A DNA stretch of 7,684 nucleotides from Candidatus Hydrogenedentes bacterium CG07_land_8_20_14_0_80_42_17 (GTDB taxonomy: Bacteria > UBA8481). The DNA is taken from contig PEWQ01000179.1 of the NCBI GenBank assembly GCA_002780065.1, positions 1 to 7,684 on the forward strand. Direction: 5' to 3'. The notes beneath the pieces were generated by a model, which saw only the letters and a list, made by a program, of their open reading frames with translations, searched no databases and was not told the origin of the DNA. Each line of letters starts with the position of its first letter. Positions within the stretch are counted from its first letter, which is position 1. This document shows, piece after piece, positions 924-7,526 of the stretch. Position numbers and translations under genes: made by a program.

Positions 924-2225
924 TTATGCCTCCGGTATAGTGAACTTTAATTCTGCCTCGGCAACGACCGTTCCTTCGACGAATGCTTTGCCGCGCATGT
1001 GAGCCATTCTCGATTTCACTTTCACAGCTTCAACCTCAAAAATAACCTGATCCCCGGGAACAACGGGCTTTCTGAATTTTACATTATCAAGTCCTGAAAA
1101 GAAGACAAGTCTGCCGGGTTTGTCTGAAGCTGATAACAACATTACTCCGCCAACTTGCGCCATCGCTTCGATAATGAGAACACCCGGCATTACAGGATAC
1201 TGAGGATAATGACCAAGAAAGAAGTCCTCATTTCCTGTGACATTTTTTAGACCGACAACTTTATTTCCAGGATCTATCGAGAGAATTCTATCGACCAAAA
1301 GAAATGGATGCCGATGAGGCAGAATCTTTTTTATTGCCTGAATGTCCAACTGCTCATTGGCTACAGGAAGGCTTTTATGGTAATACGCCGCTGTTTTCTG
1401 CCGAAGCTCATCGAGCTTCCGAGTCATGCGGATATTCAATGTATGCCCTCCGCGTATTACTATGACATGACCTTTTAATCTCGATCCGAGAAACATGAAA
1501 TCTCCGATCAGATCGAGTATTTTGTGCCTTACGGGCTCATCAGGAAATCTCAGTTTGCAGTTGCCATACGGACCCTTTGAGTCGAATACGATAGAATTTT
1601 CCAAAGACCCGCCTTTAATCAGTCCTGCGTTTCGGAGCGCTTCAACTTCGTCCAGAGAACAAAATGTTCTTGCCGGTGCGATCTCTTTTTCAAAAACTTC
1701 AGGAGTTAAAGTTAAGGTCAGAAACTGAGATCCTATTCCTGTTCCAGGAAAATTGATCGTGTAAGATATTCTGAAGTCGGCAGATGGAAGAACAATTATC
1801 TCTTTGTCTCCGTCTTCAAGCCAAACAGGCTCCCGCACTCGAAAAGTTTTTTGAGGTATATTGAATTTACGTATGCCGACCTTTTTTATCTCTTCTACGA
1901 TAGGCAAAGCAGATCCGTCGAGTGTCGGCACTTCCGGACCGTCAAATTCTATTATTACGTTGTCGATCTCTAATCCGCTTAAAGCCGCAAGCAGATGCTC
2001 CACTGTATGAATTGCAACTTCGCCTCGTCCAATCGTCGTTCCTCTTTCAGTTGCAATAACATATTCTGAACTGACAGGAATAACCGGAGACTCAGGCAGG
2101 TCTACTCGAATAAAAGTGATTCCTTTGTTCGGCTCGGAAGGTTTGAGCCTTACAGTAACTTCTTCTCCTGTGTGAAGTCCTACTCCGGAAAATACTACTT
2201 CTCCATTCAACGTTGCCTGGGTCAT
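924..2225 (-). CDS. lpxC/fabZ: Bifunctional UDP-3-O-acyl-GlcNAc deacetylase / 3-hydroxyacyl-ACP dehydratase (LpxC-FabZ fusion)
   Basis: One 433-residue protein joins two cytoplasmic enzymes. Residues 1 to about 280 are LpxC, the zinc deacetylase of the committed step of lipid A synthesis. HTVEH (73-77) supplies the catalytic Glu76 and zinc ligand His77; RHKILD (233-238) supplies ligands His234 and Asp238; His261 (GGHTLN) is the general acid; LDGSA (102-106) and ARTF (185-188) are also conserved. After a linker of about 15 residues, 294-433 form FabZ: LPHRHPFLLVDRI (302-314), then His339 (GHYP) and Glu353, the catalytic pair in the hot-dog fold. The start is an ATGA overlap with lpxD. Its AAGGAGG (2232-2238, six bases from ATG) is embedded in the last lpxD codons, so translation is probably coupled. 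Known fusion type in FCB-group bacteria. No catalytic residue is missing. Confidence 0.97.
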   Translation of the reverse strand: MTQATLNGEVVFSGVGLHTGEEVTVRLKPSEPNKGITFIRVDLPESPVIPVSSEYVIATERGTTIGRGEVAIHTVEHLLAALSGLEIDNVIIEFDGPEVPTLDGSALPIVEEIKKVGIRKFNIPQKTFRVREPVWLEDGDKEIIVLPSADFRISYTINFPGTGIGSQFLTLTLTPEVFEKEIAPARTFCSLDEVEALRNAGLIKGGSLENSIVFDSKGPYGNCKLRFPDEPVRHKILDLIGDFMFLGSRLKGHVIVIRGGHTLNIRMTRKLDELRQKTAAYYHKSLPVANEQLDIQAIKKILPHRHPFLLVDRILSIDPGNKVVGLKNVTGNEDFFLGHYPQYPVMPGVLIIEAMAQVGGVMLLSASDKPGRLVFFSGLDNVKFRKPVVPGDQVIFEVEAVKVKSRMAHMRGKAFVEGTVVAEAELKFTIPEA

Positions 2226-4031: not shown

Positions 4032-4334
4032 ATGGCTGTTGATGACAAATTGATTAATGTCAGAGTGGATCAGATTTTTGTGAGACGCGGAGTCGATACC
4101 ACAAAACTGAATTATTCTACTGCAAAGGGTTCCGTTACGATAACAGGTTTTCTTAAAGGAAGATCTAAAACTGCAGAGCCTAAAAGTAATACGGATATGA
4201 AGCAGATAGATTATATGATAAGAAAGATTCCGAATGTCAAGGGAGTGGTCTGGAACCTTCAGAATTGGCGCAAAGACGGCGCAACATGGAAAAAGATAAT
4301 GAGCGCAAAGGAACAATTCGGTGAGGGAGGATAA
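4032..4334 (+). CDS. Small BON-like domain protein, function unknown
   Basis: A 100-residue protein with no signal peptide or membrane segment, so probably cytoplasmic. The layout resembles a single BON domain: an N-terminal helix (KLINVRVDQIFVRRG, 6-20), a central strand pair GSVTITGFLKG (33-43), a helix with basic residues (57-67) and IPNVKGVVWNLQNW (66-79), which echoes the strand ending 'V.GV..V.N.L' of BON domains. The C-terminus is charged and likely flexible. BON domains are thought to bind phospholipid or other ligands, but no function can be given here. TAA ends two bases before the corA ATG, and the corA ribosome site lies inside this gene, so the two are surely co-transcribed. The upstream region has no Shine-Dalgarno site. 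The BON assignment rests on pattern recognition only. Confidence 0.8.
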   Translation: MAVDDKLINVRVDQIFVRRGVDTTKLNYSTAKGSVTITGFLKGRSKTAEPKSNTDMKQIDYMIRKIPNVKGVVWNLQNWRKDGATWKKIMSAKEQFGEGG

Positions 4335-4336
4335 AA

Positions 4337-5311
4337 ATGCTGCAAGTCTTCTGGTCGGACAGTTCCGGCGTAAAACAGCAAATTCCATCAGAAGAATGGA
4401 AAGCGCTTCTTTTAGATCCGAAAGGTTTACTGTGGGTTGATATCGAGAACCCTACTGAGGATGAACTGGATCTTCTCTCTGACGTTTATGAATTCCATCC
4501 GCTTTCGATAGAAGATTGCATATTTCCTAACCATCGCCCTAAAATTGATGATTACGAAGAATATCTATTTGTAATTTTTCATTCGATGGCTATAAAAGGT
4601 GACGTTTACTCTCAAGAAAATCTGGATATTCTCGAACTGAATATTTATTTAGGACCGAATTATATTGTGACTGTGCATGAAGATCCTATTCCAGTGATCA
4701 GGCAGGTAAAAACAAAATGTTCAATGAACAATTCTCTACTATGCAAAGGAACTGATTTTCTTCTGCATCTGATAATAGATACTGTTGTGGATGATGAGAC
4801 AAGAATATTTGATCGCATAGAAGATAAACTCGATGAGATTGAAGATGAAATTATCGCGGATAAAGGAGGCGCTTTAGAGAAGATAAATGAGTTCAAGGGA
4901 TTGCTTTCAAAATTTCGAAAGGTGTCAGGCCCTCAAAGAGATGTGATCAGAATGATGATGAGTCACTCTTTTTCTTTTATCAGCACGCATCAGGTTATCT
5001 ACTTCAAAGATATTCATGATCATCTTATAAGCATTAATGAAAATACGACTCTTATGAAAGAAATGATAGCTTCTATGATGGAATCTTATTACTCGATGAT
5101 CTCAAAGAAGTTAAATGATGTAATGAAGATTTTGACTGTCGTCACTATAATATTTTTGCCTTTGAATTTGATAACTGGTTTTTACGGAATGAATTTACAG
5201 TATCTTCCTCCTGAGTCTCAGTGGGAATACAGCAATGTCTTTATTATTCTGTTTATGTTGTTAATCGCTGTAACTTTAGTTCTGTTTTTCCGAAAGAAAA
5301 AATGGATTTGA
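4337..5311 (+). CDS. corA: CorA-type Mg2+/Co2+ transport protein
   Basis: CorA forms a homopentameric inner-membrane channel for Mg2+ (also Co2+ and Ni2+), gated by Mg2+ binding to its large cytoplasmic domain. The protein has 324 residues, slightly shorter than Thermotoga CorA (351). The N-terminal alpha/beta domain (1-150) holds LWVDIENPTEDEL (32-44), HPLSIEDC (54-61) and LNIYLGPNYIVTVH (101-114). Acid-rich helices follow (152-175), then the long stalk helix. TM1 spans about 263-283 and ends in the diagnostic YGMN (283-286). The periplasmic loop has the Pro-Glu and Trp of the family (YLPPESQWEY, 289-298). TM2 (299-318) ends in the basic FFRKKKW tail. GGAGG (4326-4330) is six bases before ATG. 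It is the second gene of a two-gene unit. Confidence 0.96.
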   Translation: MLQVFWSDSSGVKQQIPSEEWKALLLDPKGLLWVDIENPTEDELDLLSDVYEFHPLSIEDCIFPNHRPKIDDYEEYLFVIFHSMAIKGDVYSQENLDILELNIYLGPNYIVTVHEDPIPVIRQVKTKCSMNNSLLCKGTDFLLHLIIDTVVDDETRIFDRIEDKLDEIEDEIIADKGGALEKINEFKGLLSKFRKVSGPQRDVIRMMMSHSFSFISTHQVIYFKDIHDHLISINENTTLMKEMIASMMESYYSMISKKLNDVMKILTVVTIIFLPLNLITGFYGMNLQYLPPESQWEYSNVFIILFMLLIAVTLVLFFRKKKWI

Positions 5312-5364: not shown

Positions 5365-6327
5365 TTAATCTTTTTTTCCGGACAAAGCTCTTTTTAATTC
5401 TTCATGAACTGCCAAAACATTTTCTTTTTTCCAAGTCGAAGGGTCATCTCTCAGAAATGAAGTTTTGTCTACTCTATTGTCGAACCTGGCTGTAGGTAAA
5501 AAAAATGACTTTCCATCTTTCTCGATTTCTACTGTTCCGCGTCTTTTAGAATTTGTTATCAGCCAGTCGATGTCGTCGCATCCGTAATCTTTAAGCATAA
5601 CTTCTAGCGGCACTCCATGATGCAATATCGAGCCTGGATCGTTGGGATCGGTTCTGGCATCATTCTTTCTTCTCGATTCTTCAGGAGTTACCCAGATATA
5701 AAGTATTGATGCTTTTTGAAGGACAGAATCGCTTAATCTTTTTAAAGAGCTTCTGTAACCAAGCGGCTCTGAAAGCGGCATTTCAGCACCATCCGGGCCT
5801 CCGCGCGCAAATTCGATGACAATAGTTTTACCATTTAGATCAGTCTGAAGATTAGCATTTTTTTCTTCGATTAATTTTGAAGACTCTTTATCTAACCTTC
5901 GCCCGAGTTCTTTTTCTAAATCGGAATTCAAAACCGAAGACAATAAAGTTGCTCCGGCTCTTTTAGAGGCGGCTTCTATTCTTTGTAATAACCATTTTCC
6001 AGGTTCGTTAGAGGAAACTTTTTTGTGTTCTATAAGATCACTGTAATCTTCGTTGATAAGTTCTATAAGTGTCAGCCAATGCTTTGTGTCTCTGAACGGT
6101 TTGTCTGATGTTTGAAAAAAAATTCTGTTCGCGCCTATAGATATAAGCTCATCGTCTATACGCCTCATCGAATGAACGTAAGGATAGTCGTCGAGCTGAA
6201 CAGTTTCTCCGATTCCAAAGTCTGATTGCCTCGTCTTTGCGTCAGTAAAATCCATGTACCTTCTGACTTCTGATTTTCCTGAAGCCGGCAAAGCTAGTAA
6301 AAGCAAAATTTCAATATTCTTTGTCAT
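5365..6327 (-). CDS. P-loop kinase-like NTPase, function unknown
   Basis: A 320-residue soluble protein. A hydrophobic strand (IEILLLLALP, 5-14) leads into a Walker A loop, ALPASGKS (12-19), with Ala replacing the usual first Gly. This form is common in P-loop kinases. TIVIEFARGGPDG (168-180) resembles a Walker B strand and following loop. ILYIWVTPEESRRKNDAR (208-225) has the arginine-rich look of a kinase lid. Other notable blocks are QLDDYPYVHSMRRIDDEL (44-61), HWLTLIELINEDY (83-95), HHGVPLEVMLKDYGCDDIDWL (236-256) and RFDNRVDKTSF (281-291), all with the density of invariant-looking residues expected of an enzyme. The substrate is unknown. Its ATG overlaps the stop of the upstream membrane-protein gene (ATGA), and only a weak purine-rich ribosome site (GAAGAAAAG) precedes it, so translation is probably coupled. 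I know no characterised homologue. Confidence 0.9.
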   Translation of the reverse strand: MTKNIEILLLLALPASGKSEVRRYMDFTDAKTRQSDFGIGETVQLDDYPYVHSMRRIDDELISIGANRIFFQTSDKPFRDTKHWLTLIELINEDYSDLIEHKKVSSNEPGKWLLQRIEAASKRAGATLLSSVLNSDLEKELGRRLDKESSKLIEEKNANLQTDLNGKTIVIEFARGGPDGAEMPLSEPLGYRSSLKRLSDSVLQKASILYIWVTPEESRRKNDARTDPNDPGSILHHGVPLEVMLKDYGCDDIDWLITNSKRRGTVEIEKDGKSFFLPTARFDNRVDKTSFLRDDPSTWKKENVLAVHEELKRALSGKKD

Positions 6328-7526
6328 TTCTTTTCTTCGATTAATTCACGAGCCGCTTTCATCTCTGCAATTCGTTTTCGTTCCGCTACAGCAAGATAGA
6401 TGACTGCGATGAATATGTAGAGCAATGAGAGCCAATCCGTAATCTTAGGAAATTTTCCTTTAAAAAAGATTGCAAAAATAACTGTTGAAGCAGTACCTGC
6501 AACTAGAGATGTCAGCCGATTCGATAGGTTGGCAAAGGTTGCGGTTCTGCCCTTGAACATGAAGATAAATACTGAAAAGAATGCGGCAATTCCGAATACC
6601 ATTCCTGCTCCTATAGCTCCAAAACGCAATGATGTTAGATTTGGTTTTTGCAGATACTTGGCTTCAGGAATTCTGAATGCGTCGCGAAAAACATATACCT
6701 GTTCTACAGGCTCTTTTCTTGCCTTTTTAGCCAATTCTGCTACTACGGTTGGAAGTATAGTTTCGGCTGATTGAGTCGAATTAAGCGATTGAACTATAGC
6801 GGTTTCGTCTACTAGCGGCCGAGTCCAGTTCATAATTGAAGGCAGATTGATAATAAAGACTGACAATAAAATAATTCCTATAGACGCAGAAAACTGTTCA
6901 ATAGCAAAAAACCATTTATTATTTAATGGAGTTCCGACCGGCCGAGTATTTTTGTAATAGTTCATGATGTAGATTCTCAAAGCATACGCTGTAAGATAGC
7001 AGGATAATATTGTTATAGCCGCTGAGTTGTGAATGAAATCAAAGTCACCGGGCTTGACAAAGAATATTTGCATTCCGGCGGCAGTCAAAGCAAAAAGAAC
7101 AGCGGTGTTTTCTTCTTGATAAACTTTTTTCTTCAGGATTCCCTGCCTGATTTGTATTTCGTCCACAGCTCGACCAATAATTATGAGGCTCGCGCGCATA
7201 ATGACCATTGCCACCATTACGGAAATTGGCAAAAGGTACATCATAGTTGTTGTCGGGATTACTACTGCGGTGCACAATCCGGAAAAAATAATGTAGATTA
7301 GAGCGCGTTTATCTATTGGATCAATTTTCCACCAGCCTCTGATGAGAACCCATGAAATGCAGAGCAGAGAGCCTCCGATAGTGCTCCAGACCAGATATTC
7401 AATTTGATTTAGGCCTTTTATTACAGGGAACCACTTGGATGTTATCCCAAAGATTACGTATGCTACAAAATATGCGGCACAAAATTGTATAAGCTGTCCT
7501 GTTGACCCTTCAATCTTTTTGAACAT
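6324..7526 (-). CDS. 10-TM membrane protein, DMT/EamA-like, with periplasmic insert; function unknown
   Basis: A 400-residue inner-membrane protein with about ten TM segments: 11-30, 43-63, 75-92, 96-118, 141-158, 168-188, 207-228, 300-324, 334-356 and 362-381. Ten TMs are typical of the drug/metabolite transporter superfamily. Basic residues cluster in the loops after TM2, 4, 6, 8 and at both ends, so N and C termini are cytoplasmic. The loop between TM7 and TM8 (229-299), unusually long at about 70 residues, is therefore periplasmic. Distinctive blocks are YLLPISVMVAMVIMRAS (97-113), ALRIYIMNYYKNTRP (182-196) and FMFKGRTATFANLSNRLTS (322-340). No substrate can be inferred, and a non-transport role such as sensing is possible. 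First gene of a pair with the P-loop protein. TAAGGAGGT (7546-7538) precedes the ATG, and an in-frame TAG excludes a longer start. Confidence 0.9.
   Translation of the reverse strand: MFKKIEGSTGQLIQFCAAYFVAYVIFGITSKWFPVIKGLNQIEYLVWSTIGGSLLCISWVLIRGWWKIDPIDKRALIYIIFSGLCTAVVIPTTTMMYLLPISVMVAMVIMRASLIIIGRAVDEIQIRQGILKKKVYQEENTAVLFALTAAGMQIFFVKPGDFDFIHNSAAITILSCYLTAYALRIYIMNYYKNTRPVGTPLNNKWFFAIEQFSASIGIILLSVFIINLPSIMNWTRPLVDETAIVQSLNSTQSAETILPTVVAELAKKARKEPVEQVYVFRDAFRIPEAKYLQKPNLTSLRFGAIGAGMVFGIAAFFSVFIFMFKGRTATFANLSNRLTSLVAGTASTVIFAIFFKGKFPKITDWLSLLYIFIAVIYLAVAERKRIAEMKAARELIEEKK

Follow-up and report, generated by a model that had tools for sequence, protein, structure and literature searches.

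In the NAD salvage of Haemophilus an outer nucleotidase (NadN), an inner carrier (PnuC) and a cytoplasmic ribosyl kinase (NadR) work in series. The module considered here would share this serial layout, built from other carrier and kinase families, and its nucleotidases resemble NadN at the superfamily level only. The nearest working parallel is LicB-LicA of the lic1 operon, in which a DMT-fold carrier imports choline and a cytoplasmic choline kinase then phosphorylates it (PMC4364537); LicA differs from the kinase described below, P0001, in having a protein-kinase-like fold with no P-loop, and in its substrate, choline. Two further DMT-fold proteins with ten helices are relevant to the carrier, P0002: the triose-phosphate/phosphate translocator, whose phosphate site consists of Lys204, Lys362 and Arg363 (PMC11661312), and SLC35B1, which binds nucleotide phosphates via K117 and K120 in TM4 and R276 and K277 in TM9 (PMC12267056). 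Both align with P0002 over ~290 residues, at an identity of ~8–9%; in contrast to these proteins P0002 is bacterial, lacks a Pfam transporter match and has a transport role by prediction. GlpT, PgtP and UhpC are OPA antiporters of the MFS; an alternative partner of the kinase in other genomes is near these, whereas our locus carries a DMT carrier instead. On the kinase side, deoxynucleoside and uridine kinases resemble P0001 in their P-loop phosphotransferase fold, in an acidic residue after strands 2 and 3 and in a basic lid, yet no significant sequence-profile match connects them with it.

We analysed a stretch of 7,684 nucleotides from Candidatus Hydrogenedentes bacterium CG07_land_8_20_14_0_80_42_17 (contig PEWQ01000179.1), referred to in its entirety as the window, and propose with moderate confidence that P0002 and P0001 serve a nucleotide or nucleoside scavenging module, the former as its inner-membrane carrier and the latter as its cytoplasmic kinase. 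The proposal draws on the predicted folds, the recurrent linkage of the genes, the interchange of carriers and the nucleotide-metabolism context. The pathway itself is well supported by this gene context, and substrate, direction of uptake, phosphate recognition, acceptor and catalytic step are each predicted. No description of the pair was found in the openly accessible literature.

Arrangement of the carrier and kinase genes

The window contains the following features of the pair:

6324..7526, minus strand: P0002, ten-helix DMT-fold carrier, 400 aa (ORF, AF2 model, fold matches)
7194..7196, minus strand: Arg111 in helix 4, candidate phosphate ligand (invariant in 22 sequences)
6618..6812, minus strand: ~65-residue loop linking helices 7 and 8 (lacking in the other 21 members)
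6516..6518, minus strand: Arg337 in helix 9, NRLTS motif, candidate phosphate ligand (N336, R337 and S340 invariant)
6324..6327, minus strand: ATGA overlap of carrier stop and kinase start, TCAT on the plus strand (sequence)
5365..6327, minus strand: P0001, P-loop small-molecule kinase, long form, 320 aa (ORF, 72-row alignment, AF2 model, fold)
6268..6294, minus strand: Walker A, ALPASGKSE, residues 12–20, including Lys18 (72-row alignment)
6187..6192, minus strand: Asp46-Asp47 at the end of strand 2, candidate catalytic base or acceptor-hydroxyl site (invariant)
5839..6018, minus strand: helical insert of the long form, approximately residues 104–163 (alignments A1, A2 and A6)
5800..5814, minus strand: Walker B-like EFARG, residues 172–176 (E172, R175 and G176 invariant in 72 sequences)
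5608..5685, minus strand: basic lid, residues 215–240, PEESRRKNDARTDPNDPGSILHHGVP (alignment, AF2 model)

Both ORFs are complete, and they overlap by 4 bases as the initial annotation had it. The overlap, which recurs in two other loci (L021 and L023), suggests translational coupling of carrier and kinase. The minus strand of the window holds lpxA, a fused lpxC-fabZ, lpxD, an ompH-like gene and then the pair; on the plus strand a short ORF is followed by corA (confirmed by Pfam, E 3e-69), which is convergent with the kinase gene and ends at 5311, 53 bp from it. The pair had been described as an isolated unit, bounded by corA and by a long upstream spacer. The convergent corA neighbour is indeed there, but on the other side rpoD, which follows dnaG, lies upstream of the carrier on the same strand, and as its ORF runs through Ns to ~C190:7661 the spacer measures just ~135–260 bp (Ns included), which places the pair downstream of the rpoD/dnaG operon and leaves it not isolated there.

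Two other genes of the window deserve mention in their own right. LpxC- and FabZ-type domains are joined in one 433-aa protein (924–2225, minus strand), with Pfam matches to LpxC at residues 3–271 and to a FabA-like domain at residues 302–425, within the order lpxA – lpxC/fabZ – lpxD – ompH. The ORF just before corA (4032–4334, plus strand) encodes 100 aa with no significant Pfam match and appears BON-like by eye only.

Folds, families and candidate sites of the two proteins

The AlphaFold model of P0002 has ten long helices (mean pLDDT 83.7), in agreement with the ten membrane segments annotated initially, and its best fold matches are the triose-phosphate/phosphate translocator (5Y78, Z 23.6) and the ATP/ADP exchanger SLC35B1 (Z 21.4), followed by nucleotide-sugar transporters and LicB (Z 18.8). 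As 21 DMT-fold entries lead the list (Z 14.7–23.6) and the following entry reaches only 7.7, the modelled fold clearly places P0002 in the DMT superfamily. Sequence comparison assigns it to no named family: scanning 22 carrier members gave no significant Pfam match to EamA, TPT, NST or any other family (best E 0.037, to unrelated families), P0002 itself has no match in NCBIfam, PHROGs or PADLOC, and nothing significant was found among the sequences of solved structures with the carrier profile. Arg111 in helix 4 and Asn336-Arg337 in helix 9 are invariant in the carrier family and may correspond to the phosphate site of the translocator; in SLC35B1 the phosphate-binding basic residues lie in helices 4 and 9. 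The loop between helices 7 and 8 is poorly predicted (pLDDT ~50–60) and is unique to the window's copy among the aligned members.

The P0001 model (pLDDT 92.2) compares with solved folds of adenylate kinase (Z 10.8), gluconate kinase (10.2) and dCK (9.6), values so near one another that their ranking does not separate nucleoside from gluconate-type substrates, and Foldseek places dephospho-CoA kinase first, followed by many dCK entries. The model places P0001 among P-loop small-molecule kinases with the adenylate/gluconate/deoxynucleoside-kinase fold. As with the carrier, the initial impression of an uncharacterised protein was upheld. P0001 has no assignable family in Pfam, NCBIfam, PHROGs or PADLOC, none of the 72 kinase relatives scanned has a significant Pfam match, and the gathering score of PF01712 (dNK) is not reached (best E 0.13, for one member of alignment A2 and one of A6). 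A comparison of the short-form profile (A6) with a confirmed uridine kinase by hhalign returned 19 P-loop columns at a probability of 9.8%, and the kinase profile found nothing significant among the sequences of solved structures.

The Walker A motif with Lys18, the Walker B-like strand and the arginine-rich lid that had been recognised in P0001 are all present, with key residues invariant in the 72-sequence alignment. These comprise P14, A15, G17, K18, S19 and E20 of Walker A, E172 within the Walker B-like strand VIEFARGG, and R220, K221, N222 and R225 of the basic lid (PEESRRKNDARTDPNDPGS), whose residues 231–235 have low pLDDT in the AF2 model, as a mobile lid would give. Asp46-Asp47 are invariant in both the long form of the kinase and a short form of ~240 aa, which lacks the helical insert and is present in further lineages. 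Uridine, deoxynucleoside and shikimate kinases suggest by analogy that Asp46-Asp47 may serve as catalytic base or acceptor-hydroxyl site; their position after strand 2, together with Glu172 after strand 3, resembles the arrangement in known families of hydroxyl-acceptor kinases.

A search of 84,980 species genomes yielded 301 kinase relatives, the best 80 of which come from Elusimicrobia, Myxococcota, Bdellovibrionota, Krumholzibacteria, Eisenbacteria, Lindowbacteria and others. Among these best 80, relatives in other phyla are 50–60% identical across the whole protein, which bears out the conserved-looking blocks noted at the outset. A FastTree phylogeny of 114 kinases separates long from short forms, and both partner types, described below, occur within each form; with its long branches and weak inner forks, the tree gives rough estimates of how often each partner was gained independently (8 and 10 changes).

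Linkage with two carrier types and with nucleotide metabolism

The co-occurrence of the genes was assessed in 386 genomes sampled across the domain, where strong matches to the carrier occur in 21 and to the kinase in 39. Seventeen of the 21 carrier genomes also hold the kinase, against 2.1 expected (hypergeometric p 1e-15), and at the family level the figure is 13 of 16 against 1.7 (p 3e-12, with the total number of families taken as ~260). The two genes adjoin in 8 of the 17 co-holders, in either order and at varying spacing. The kinase is linked in the same way to a second, GlpT-like MFS carrier: 13 of the 18 strong MFS holders also have the kinase (p 9e-11, same 386 genomes), and the two adjoin in 9 of these 13, again without a fixed order. 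The MFS partner matches GlpT (E 7e-33) and TIGR00881 (E 3e-47), remaining below every NCBIfam equivalog cut-off, and it keeps the two arginines of the GlpT phosphate site. The expectation of a joint system therefore survives in part, as linkage goes well beyond chance, but not as a private couple, the MFS carrier partnering the kinase equally often; the pair would be one edition of a looser module.

Adjacency across phyla, proposed earlier as a check, is similarly divided, with 8 of 17 co-holders on one side and, on the other, a DMT carrier adjacent in only ~8 of the best 80 of the 301 kinase relatives, most others being without such a neighbour, which led us to reject a strictly obligate pair. 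Unrelated genes surround many long-form relatives, and in 11 of the 39 genomes with the kinase neither carrier passes the threshold. In one family, represented by G093, G231 and G361, the kinase gene is followed by that of an EamA carrier. The long form also has Nramp-like, protein-kinase, fumarase and other neighbours, each confined to a single lineage and taken as inherited synteny.

Some loci carry further peculiarities. One Elusimicrobia locus (L024, 5771–5968) retains only N- and C-terminal pieces of a carrier upstream of an intact kinase, which would reflect loss of the carrier with retention of the kinase. Five Elusimicrobia loci (L025, L027, L038, L020 and L024) have a fumarase-like gene, identified by eye, immediately 5′ of the carrier or kinase gene, and a short-period coding-like repeat (GTDLAPAWHRP...) lies beside an MFS-kinase unit (genome G052, L010, 494–1102). 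Searches of phage, plasmid and viral collections returned one distant plasmid match (Chloroflexota) and no phage or viral relative, so we read the pair as neither mobile nor viral; an anti-phage defence role was rejected on the lack of a PADLOC match and of relatives in phage records or viral contigs.

Eight genomes have genes for a UshA-like nucleotidase, the carrier and the kinase collinear in this order; the carrier is of the DMT type in three of them (G030, G177 and G002) and of the MFS type in five (G325, G387, G052, G321 and G255). The UshA-like gene adjoins the kinase in two further genomes, and it lies within 5 kb of the kinase in 10 genomes. Its N-terminus is lipoprotein-like in those inspected. 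A uridine kinase gene directly follows UshA-MFS-kinase in G255, and an AphA-like phosphatase gene lies directly 3′ of the kinase in G030. The strongest nucleoside cluster is limited to one small phylum, that of G366, where five of seven genomes have the order Udk – RpiB – adenosine deaminase – kinase – (UshA) – PNP. The kinase there comes right after adenosine deaminase and is convergent with PNP, with RpiB and uridine kinase present where the contig suffices. In the remaining genomes, G237 and G390, the kinase is missing from the otherwise equal cluster, and a long-form kinase lies elsewhere, beside the MFS carrier; four of the five cluster-kinase genomes have the DMT carrier, which was found in neither G237 nor G390. 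Such a swap points to equivalent roles for the kinase forms, and likewise for the two carriers. Genes of nucleotide or nucleoside breakdown are thus linked to the kinase across independent lineages, and the UshA-like nucleotidase, adenosine deaminase, PNP and uridine kinase neighbours point to a pathway that is not visible from the window alone.

In the window's own genome no nucleotide gene adjoins the pair. A UshA-like lipoprotein gene is found there beside microcompartment (BMC) genes (L245, contig C141, 96–8594); those for a tandem BMC shell protein, a PduS-like protein, aldehyde dehydrogenase and PduL run into the UshA-like gene and a diguanylate-cyclase-like gene. Another contig (L246, C47, 2–2519) encodes a DeoC aldolase that carries a long extension at its N-terminus, and the ORF after it is DeoB (phosphopentomutase)-like. 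This set resembles the sugar-phosphate-utilising (SPU) microcompartment loci, for which a link to DNA catabolism has been proposed (PMC4207490), and the nucleotidase beside the BMC locus may mark a DNA-degrading compartment.

Proposed role and alternative explanations

In the scavenging module that we propose, a secreted UshA-type nucleotidase, its gene linked in many genomes and located elsewhere in the window's genome, would trim nucleotides from DNA and RNA debris outside the cell. P0002 would move the trimmed product across the inner membrane, a GlpT-like organophosphate antiporter replacing it in other lineages, and Arg111 and Arg337 probably recognise phosphate, either the substrate's or that of a counter-ion. 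P0001 would then use ATP on the imported molecule, trapping it and supplying the nucleotide pool; a nucleoside hydroxyl (purine or deoxynucleoside) is the more likely acceptor than a nucleoside monophosphate. Of the earlier suggestion that the kinase modifies or energises what the membrane protein moves or senses, modification of the moved molecule fits this scheme, while energising of the carrier is unsupported. The chief tension is that UshA strips, outside, the phosphate that such carriers usually recognise, which is chemically awkward; it would be eased by a nucleotidase that leaves a monophosphate, by a carrier that exchanges its substrate for phosphate or by a shift of the carriers towards nucleosides. 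A more specific reading, which we hold tentatively and consider rather doubtful, is that nucleotides or nucleoside phosphates enter uncultured bacteria by exchange through a new DMT carrier family, which resembles in structure the plastid triose-phosphate translocator and the ER ATP/ADP exchanger and is interchangeable with GlpT-like carriers, and that this family acts together with a hitherto unknown family of P-loop nucleoside or nucleotide kinases.

The alternative that survives best, though we judge it unlikely, is organophosphate uptake that is not nucleotide-specific, in which a sugar phosphate or similar compound is imported by phosphate exchange and the kinase acts on the same compound, for example ribose-1-phosphate or another pentose derivative. 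Both carriers resemble organophosphate exchangers (the triose-phosphate/phosphate translocator and GlpT/PgtP/UhpC), gluconate kinase is among the best fold matches of the kinase, RpiB is part of the cluster in one phylum and nucleotide sugars are also cleaved by UshA; however, the adenosine deaminase, PNP, uridine kinase and nucleotidase neighbours favour nucleosides over general sugars. Decidedly unlikely, in our view, is the import of intact nucleoside monophosphates with P0001 as an NMP kinase. In its favour, nucleotide and organophosphate exchangers are the proteins closest to the carrier, adenylate kinase heads the structural matches of P0001 and the MFS partner retains the phosphate-site arginines of GlpT, but a 5′-nucleotidase beside the carrier would destroy the substrate, and the invariant D46-D47, judged from known families, resembles hydroxyl-acceptor kinases.

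If P0001 were instead a housekeeping kinase for nucleoside or other salvage with no mechanistic tie to transport, adjacency would reflect a shared regulon, as could be read from the fact that most long-form relatives stand alone among unrelated genes and from the 11 of 39 kinase genomes with neither carrier above threshold. Against this, the kinase gene recurs next to carriers of two unrelated families, and several of the gene pairs overlap or nearly abut; we regard the explanation as improbable. That the kinase directly regulates or energises the membrane protein, or that the two form a sensor, is highly improbable, as despite the overlapping genes and strong conservation the kinase also partners a structurally unrelated MFS carrier, often has no carrier nearby and has the fold of a metabolite kinase.

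Outer nucleotidase, inner carrier and cytoplasmic kinase form a known salvage scheme; what is new in the scavenging module proposed here is both inner families. If the proposal is true, it assigns a pathway to two widespread families that carry no Pfam or NCBIfam name and occur in Elusimicrobia, Myxococcota, Bdellovibrionota, Krumholzibacteria and several candidate phyla, and two unrelated carriers of the organophosphate-exchanger type would substitute for each other next to a single kinase, so that the substrate could be tested directly. To our knowledge few bacterial nucleotide importers are known, and one of the DMT type would be of interest both for transport biology and for the uncultured bacteria that live on nucleic-acid debris.
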